This document shows positions 22,018-23,081 of a DNA stretch of 64,000 bases, piece after piece. Origin of the DNA: Clostridium sp. 'deep sea' (GTDB lineage: Bacteria; Bacillota; UBA994; PWPR01). The notes under the pieces are model-generated. The model saw nothing but the letters and a program-made list of their open reading frames with translations, was not told the DNA's origin and did no database searches. Position 1 is the stretch's first letter. Each line of letters begins with the position of its first letter. The stretch is taken from assembly GCF_014931565.1 (NCBI RefSeq), contig NZ_CP063353.1, positions 186,001-250,000 on the forward strand, read 5' to 3'. Position numbers and translations under genes: made by a program.

Positions 22018-22075
22018 CAATTGTCAACCATTGTTTACTATAGTGGTTGACAATTGTTTTTTTAAACACTATAAT
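22018..22075 (+). promoter_or_regulatory. BirA operator overlapping a sigma-A promoter
   Basis: A perfect inverted repeat, CAATTGTCAACC (22018-22029) and GGTTGACAATTG (22045-22056), is separated by 15 bases and matches the Firmicute BirA box. The right arm contains the -35 element TTGACA (22047-22052). TATAAT lies at 22070-22075 after an exact 17-bp spacer. Biotinyl-AMP-bound BirA would therefore block RNA polymerase directly and shut off the whole birA-bio operon. Confidence 0.92.
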
Positions 22076-22103
22076 ACCACTTGTACTGAGGAGGTGGCTT
22101 AAG

Positions 22104-23081
22104 ATAAAAAATAAAATTTTAGCTATTTTAGAAGAACATAAAGGAAGTCACGTATCTGGCAGTTATCTAGGTGATGCTTTAGGGGTCTCCAGATCAGCAA
22201 TATGGAAAAGTATTAAATCCCTTAAAGATGAGGGTTACAACATAAGCAGTAAAACTAATAAAGGCTATATATTGAGTAGAGATACTGATGTTTTAAGTCT
22301 CACAAAAATTAAAAAAAACCTTAATACTCAATTTTTAGGTAAAGATGTGCAATATTTTAAAACTATTACTTCAACGAATAAAGTTCTAAGAGATCTTGCT
22401 CATGAAGGTGCTAAAGAAGGTTTAGTTTTAATAGCAGAGCAACAAACAGCTGGGCGTGGCAGAAATAAGAAGTCTTTTTATTCACCTAATAAAAATGGTA
22501 TCTATATGAGCCTTTTATTAAAACCAAATATTGCAGTGAGTAATATTAACCTAATTACATTTATTACTGCTGTTTGTGTTGCCGAAGCTATCGAAAAGGT
22601 TTGTGGCATTAGTCTAGAGATTAAATGGGTTAATGATTTGCTGTATCAATATAAAAAAGTATGTGGAATTTTAACTGAGGCTTCCATAGAAGGGGAAAGT
22701 GGTATTGTTGATTTTTTAGTTGTAGGTATAGGTATTAATATAGATAACACACTTAATTTTCCTGAAGAATTTAAACATAATTCTATTGCCCTTAAACAAA
22801 TTAAACAAGGATTTTCACAATCTAGGTTAGTTGCTGAGATATTAAATGTATTTGAGAAGCAATATAATTACTACTTACAATCTGGTGATGTTAATGATAT
22901 TTTGGTACGTTATCGTGAGCGTTTATGTGTAATAGGTAAAAAAATTGAAGTTATAACTCGTCAAGATAATTACCTAGCAGAGGTTATAAAGTTTAATAAT
23001 GCTGGGCAGCTAATTGTTAAAAAAAGTAGCAATGGAGATATTGTTAATTTAGTATCTGGTGAAATTTCAATAAAATTATAG
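22104..23081 (+). CDS. birA: Bifunctional biotin protein ligase / biotin operon repressor
   Basis: BirA attaches biotin to carboxylase carrier domains and, as holorepressor, binds the operator upstream. The N-terminal winged helix (about 1-60: SGSYLGDALGVSRSAIWKSIKSLKDEGY) marks the regulatory, group II type. The ligase centre is GRGRNKKSFYSP, followed by KWVNDLLY, and the C-terminal SH3-like domain ends the protein. No ATG, GTG or TTG occurs in frame between the predicted transcript start (~22082) and the conserved N-terminus. AGGAGG (22089-22094) points to ATA at 22104 (CTT at 22098 is too close). The TTG at 22047 lies inside the -35 element and cannot serve this transcript. The start is therefore atypical or a base is misread. 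Confidence 0.88.
   Translation: MKNKILAILEEHKGSHVSGSYLGDALGVSRSAIWKSIKSLKDEGYNISSKTNKGYILSRDTDVLSLTKIKKNLNTQFLGKDVQYFKTITSTNKVLRDLAHEGAKEGLVLIAEQQTAGRGRNKKSFYSPNKNGIYMSLLLKPNIAVSNINLITFITAVCVAEAIEKVCGISLEIKWVNDLLYQYKKVCGILTEASIEGESGIVDFLVVGIGINIDNTLNFPEEFKHNSIALKQIKQGFSQSRLVAEILNVFEKQYNYYLQSGDVNDILVRYRERLCVIGKKIEVITRQDNYLAEVIKFNNAGQLIVKKSSNGDIVNLVSGEISIKL

Follow-up and report, generated by a model that had tools for sequence, protein, structure and literature searches.

The biotin repressor gene birA of Clostridium sp. 'deep sea' appears to start at AUA behind a strong ribosome-binding site

Where does translation of a biotin repressor begin when its gene offers no usual start codon behind its own promoter? 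The question is raised by birA of Clostridium sp. 'deep sea', which occupies positions 22104..23081 (+) of the window, that is, of the whole 64,000-nucleotide stretch of DNA analysed here. The 325-aa product carries an N-terminal winged helix-turn-helix (HTH) domain (PF08279, HTH_11, residues 3-56) fused to a biotin protein ligase domain (PF03099, BPL, residues 85-212), the architecture of a Group II biotin protein ligase/repressor, and BirA is predicted to belong to this group, its DNA-binding and ligase activities being putative. Between the predicted transcript start near 22082 and the TTG of residue 57 (22272..22274, +), the first in-frame canonical codon downstream and one that would yield a ligase without the HTH domain, the birA frame contains neither ATG nor GTG nor TTG. 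The only other canonical start codon in frame before residue 57 is the TTG at 22047, which forms part of the -35 element. Both observations had been made in a first-pass annotation of this DNA and are confirmed here, and its description of 22040-22110 is accurate as well, with the promoter and the Shine-Dalgarno (SD) sequence in place and with the three codons CTG (22086), CTT (22098) and ATA (22104) in frame with BirA. A frameshift from another start was ruled out, since every frame is free of ATG between 22047 and 22173 and GTG at 22094 runs into a stop after two codons.

The codon best served by the ribosome site is ATA at 22104..22106 (+). The AGGAGG at 22089-22094 that had been taken as the ribosome site is present, but the site is in fact longer and comprises the extended SD AGGAGGTG at 22089..22096 (+). 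The ATA follows AGGAGGTG by 7 nt and AGGAGG by 9 nt, a spacing from AGGAGG also found in 36 of the 307 strong-SD genes with canonical starts in this genome, where the mode is 7; the other in-frame codons near the site are the CTG, the CTT and an AAG at 22101. Thus, a near-cognate codon stands properly spaced behind a strong SD, with no canonical start near the conserved N-terminus. The HTH_11 match covers profile positions 3-55 of 55 and begins at BirA residue 3, and the protein must therefore begin at or next to the ATA. In addition, identity to 16 homologues is about 50% in the HTH and 38% in the remainder, with the HTH higher in all 16 comparisons; given this difference, codons 2-56 are evidently translated, and the stretch just behind the ATA is evidently under constraint at the protein level. 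Reassignment of AUA to methionine was ruled out, as internal ATA codons fall at conserved isoleucine positions (33, 47). No unusual degree of structure is predicted for the leader RNA near the start (z -0.83). Given the extended SD and the alignment of the HTH from residue 3, the proposal that birA is initiated at 22104 gains support, and AUA is probably the best start for the gene. It appears, then, that birA starts at a very weak codon and not at AUG, GUG or UUG.

The promoter in front of this start leaves little to be desired. Its -35 element TTGACA (22047..22052, +) and its -10 element TATAAT (22070..22075, +) match the consensus in 12 of 12 bases and are separated by a 17-nt spacer, which supports the earlier view that birA stands behind its own promoter; the transcript start near 22082 is predicted from the usual distance to the -10 element. 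A perfect BirA-type operator, TTGTCAACC-N15-GGTTGACAA (22021..22053, no strand assigned), overlaps the -35 element, which is supplied by its right half. The exact operator occurs once in the whole 3.83-Mb genome, and looser matches elsewhere in the genome are at chance level (29 vs 26 with a reversed-pattern control). As the site lies over the -35 element of a biotin promoter and equivalent sites precede birA in relatives, autoregulation of birA, which had been assumed in the first-pass annotation, is strongly implied. The same DNA can be read in a second way: the palindrome CAATTGTCAACCA...TGGTTGACAATTG followed by T7 (22018..22056, +) would form a hairpin of 17 pairs with a loop of 5 (dG -22.6 kcal/mol, z -5.85) with seven U after it, so that 22018-22056, besides holding the BirA operator, resembles a terminator hairpin placed after the Asp/Glu racemase gene upstream. 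This hairpin may also end transcripts arriving from the racemase gene.

Downstream, birA is followed by bioY, a biotin transporter gene with an ATG start (PF02632; 23098..23673, +), by bioB for biotin synthase, also with ATG (PF04055 and PF06968; 23685..24644, +), and by two genes assigned by domain and operon context, namely a bioD-like dethiobiotin synthetase gene whose GTG start overlaps bioB (PF13500; 24644..25354, +) and a bioA-like gene for a class-III aminotransferase (PF00202; 25354..26694, +). The genes are closely spaced or overlapping, the downstream starts are ATG or GTG, and birA is thus the apparent first gene of a birA-bioY-bioB-bioD-bioA operon. Elsewhere in the genome (C1:2966770) lies the gene for another biotin ligase, which lacks an HTH domain.

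Taken together, we favour with some confidence an autoregulated five-gene operon in which the repressor comes first and is weakly translated from AUA. From the elements above we infer the use of AUA, its low efficiency, a single polycistronic transcript and the regulatory effect. Once charged with biotinyl-AMP, BirA would occupy the operator across the -35 element, and the consensus promoter would be switched off. Under biotin shortage, this strong promoter would yield abundant five-gene mRNA, to which the strong AGGAGGTG would recruit ribosomes, with initiation at AUA 22104 being inefficient. Little BirA would thus be made per transcript in comparison with the transporter and the enzymes, giving a low repressor-to-enzyme ratio with the operon itself not weakened. 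Protein biotinylation would be carried by the second, HTH-less ligase, and low BirA might be tolerable because that ligase can take over this task. If this is real, a biotin repressor is held down by its start codon, an example of which the papers found give no description, and the weak start sits where it is most sensible, since the gene leads an operon with a strong promoter and encodes the repressor of that operon.

Weak starts of this kind are rare but known for other regulators, and birA belongs to this known, rare class. In ccpN, which encodes an HTH-type metabolic repressor, an AUA start with an extended SD is conserved in S. aureus and B. subtilis, and in S. aureus it is supported by ribosome profiling and reporters (PMC13009471). 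Both genes have AUA behind an extended SD on a metabolic transcriptional repressor, whereas the ccpN codon is conserved across species and experimentally supported and that of birA is known from the sequence of one genome; birA differs further in being autoregulated, as the operator implies, and first in its own operon. The low-repressor function suggested for birA would have its precedent in ccpN. Likewise, rsbW of L. monocytogenes is a regulator gene for which ATG-to-ATA mutants show reduced expression, as we would expect for birA, and in Listeria rsbW reporters the order was ATG > ATA > ATT, with ATA weaker than ATG yet working; the ATA of rsbW, in contrast, is the outcome of selection in the laboratory within a strain (PMC13068326). 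A third parallel is infC, the gene for IF3 with AUU, AUC or AUA starts, which shares with birA a near-cognate start behind AGGAGGTG; there, however, the near-cognate start serves translational feedback by IF3. To our knowledge, BirA has no role in translation. With the Group II BirA proteins of B. subtilis (PMC4016012) and L. lactis (PMC4861984), the protein shares the HTH and ligase domains and a palindromic operator at the promoter, and the pairing of a regulatory BirA with an HTH-less second ligase recalls BirA1 and BirA2 of L. lactis (PMC4861984). The parts of these papers drawn on here describe no non-canonical start (PMC4016012, PMC4861984), and a further difference is that in the present case birA leads the very operon under control.

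Homologues bear on whether the AUA is old. The best ones found are only about 43% identical to BirA; a hunt for closer ones gave nothing above 36-40% in genome contigs and nothing in viral contigs, all plasmid matches were below 60% (best about 40%), and the same-genus genome (G001) has no birA of the HTH type. At nearly all of about 65 birA loci inspected, ATG, GTG or TTG coincides with the aligned position or lies only a few codons away from it, and none of them has a clear AUA start, one locus (L027, in G031) being ambiguous. One homologue (L012) has TTG exactly at the position aligned with the ATA, followed by the same AAAAATAAAATTTTA stretch, and the birA of a same-family genome (G002) has an ATG that precedes the aligned ATA by one codon, in a control region of the same operator and promoter layout (TTGACA, 17 nt, TAGAAT, then GGGGTGA and ATG; promoter read by eye). 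The first-pass annotation had held that a relative with a canonical start at the position of 22104 would speak against its reading, and these two genes go part of the way. With relatives about 37% identical, the comparison shows the AUA to be lineage-specific and does not refute it here; among the homologues inspected it is not conserved, and it is not an old trait of the family. The related suggestion that AUA adds a translational layer to autoregulation holds only in part: a poor start codon would shift the set-point of BirA downwards and by itself makes no feedback loop, and an evolved regulatory layer is no more than a possibility.

The same comparison feeds the rival account that survives best, in which the ATA stems from an ATG by the alteration of one base, through an error in assembly or sequencing or through a recent mutation that is specific to the strain and reduces BirA, with no evolved role. 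We consider this unlikely, though worth serious attention, given that canonical starts stand at or beside the ATA codon in almost every homologue, the same-family one included, that ATA is one transition from ATG, and that such changes occur, as in the selected ATG-to-ATA change of Listeria rsbW (PMC13068326) and in the AUA of citZ, which only one lineage of S. aureus carries (PMC13009471). Against it, the genome is a single contig and birA is intact apart from its start codon, and other AUA, AUU or AUC starts stand behind strong SDs in this genome, some of them matched in the same-genus genome.

These other starts emerged from a census of 1.26 Mb of the genome in stretches, one of which was chosen for containing infC. 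It returned 303 strong-SD ORFs with a properly spaced ATG, GTG or TTG and seven with a near-cognate codon only. One of the seven, recA (L047), was a false AUA candidate, as the gene has an ATG further downstream, served by a CGGAGG of its own, leaving six real candidates: birA, infC (AUC), a BCCT transporter gene (AUA), a GNAT gene (AUU or AUA), an AgrB-like gene (AUU) and a gene for a small membrane-anchored protein (AUA). It is therefore uncommon in this genome for a strong SD to lack a canonical start, but birA is not the only case, and AUA, AUU and AUC starts make up roughly 1-2% of its strong-SD genes. Annotation that allows ATG, GTG and TTG only would misplace or truncate genes of this kind, and from birA it would remove the DNA-binding domain. 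In a control genome of similar GC content (35% GC) one near-cognate case stood beside 115 canonical ones, which gives no support to a lineage unusually rich in AUA starts (6 beside 303 vs 1 beside 115; Fisher P 0.68); relative to chance, near-cognate codons at strong-SD sites show a modest excess (P about 0.04). Near-cognate starts behind strong SDs thus form a rare, ordinary class, of which the AT-rich control genome likewise has one.

Several cases can be followed into the same-genus genome. The infC gene starts at AUC here (L086, C1 around 411939, +) and at AUA in that genome (L181), in both behind AGGAGGTG. The BCCT transporter gene (L072/L092, C1 around 1438211, -) has AAGGAGG with AUA and without an SD-served canonical start, and its homologue (L152) has only ATC/ATT/ATC behind AAGGAGGT, so that a non-canonical start seems to be kept in the genus. 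The GNAT gene has ATT where its homologue has ATG, and the homologue of the membrane-anchored protein gene also has ATG. Because several AUA, AUU and AUC starts stand behind strong SDs, weak starts seem to be tolerated in this genome, and the suspicion of a sequencing error, raised in the first-pass annotation, is weakened by them but retains some force. The AUA may have evolved as a regulatory feature or may be of recent origin.

Initiation elsewhere fares worse. The HTH part might be left untranslated, with a start at the internal TTG at 22272, which is in frame and has a weak AAAGG 7 nt upstream, and in B. subtilis removal of the N-terminal domain can turn BirA into a Group I ligase (PMC4016012). 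This is very improbable here, as the HTH is the best-conserved part and a full Pfam match, the strong SD sits just before the ATA, the perfect operator needs a DNA-binding BirA, and an HTH-less ligase is already encoded in the genome. Least probable is the use of another codon: the TTG at 22047 is in frame but would require a read-through transcript from upstream, lies inside the -35 element with no SD, and is made less likely because the strong hairpin and U-run may end upstream transcripts, and on the birA transcript itself CTG 22086 precedes the SD, CTT 22098 is too close to it, and AAG 22101, well spaced (6 nt) and aligned with the Met of several homologues, is among the poorest of initiators, with homologues starting near the ATA.

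Returning to initiation at AUA 22104, a broader proposal is possible but doubtful. The AUA would be fixed in the species, would keep the repressor scarce in comparison with the bioYBDA products of the same mRNA, and would tie BirA synthesis to IF3 activity, because IF3 is here itself made from a near-cognate AUC start; birA would then join BCCT, GNAT, T2SSF, AgrB and SOD genes in a weak-start set of the lineage that is missed when annotation is limited to ATG, GTG and TTG.

Some further loci were noted along the way. Genes for GNAT, AgrB-like, small membrane-anchored and T2SSF-domain proteins (L138, L044, L058 and L144) have AUA or AUU behind strong SDs with no canonical start there. An Fe/Mn superoxide dismutase gene (L076, C1 around 2352430, -) encodes an N-terminal extension for which the sole good start is AGGAGGTGgagttaATA. 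In the control genome (G131, L209:3082-5155), a 691-codon ORF has AGGAGG with ATA alone at the proper distance. Finally, back in the birA genome, a 315-codon ORF on the minus strand (L146, 12613-13558) has an SD after which a short peptide opens with ATG in another frame and runs across seven consecutive A, and is a candidate for a frameshift, phase variation or a pseudogene.
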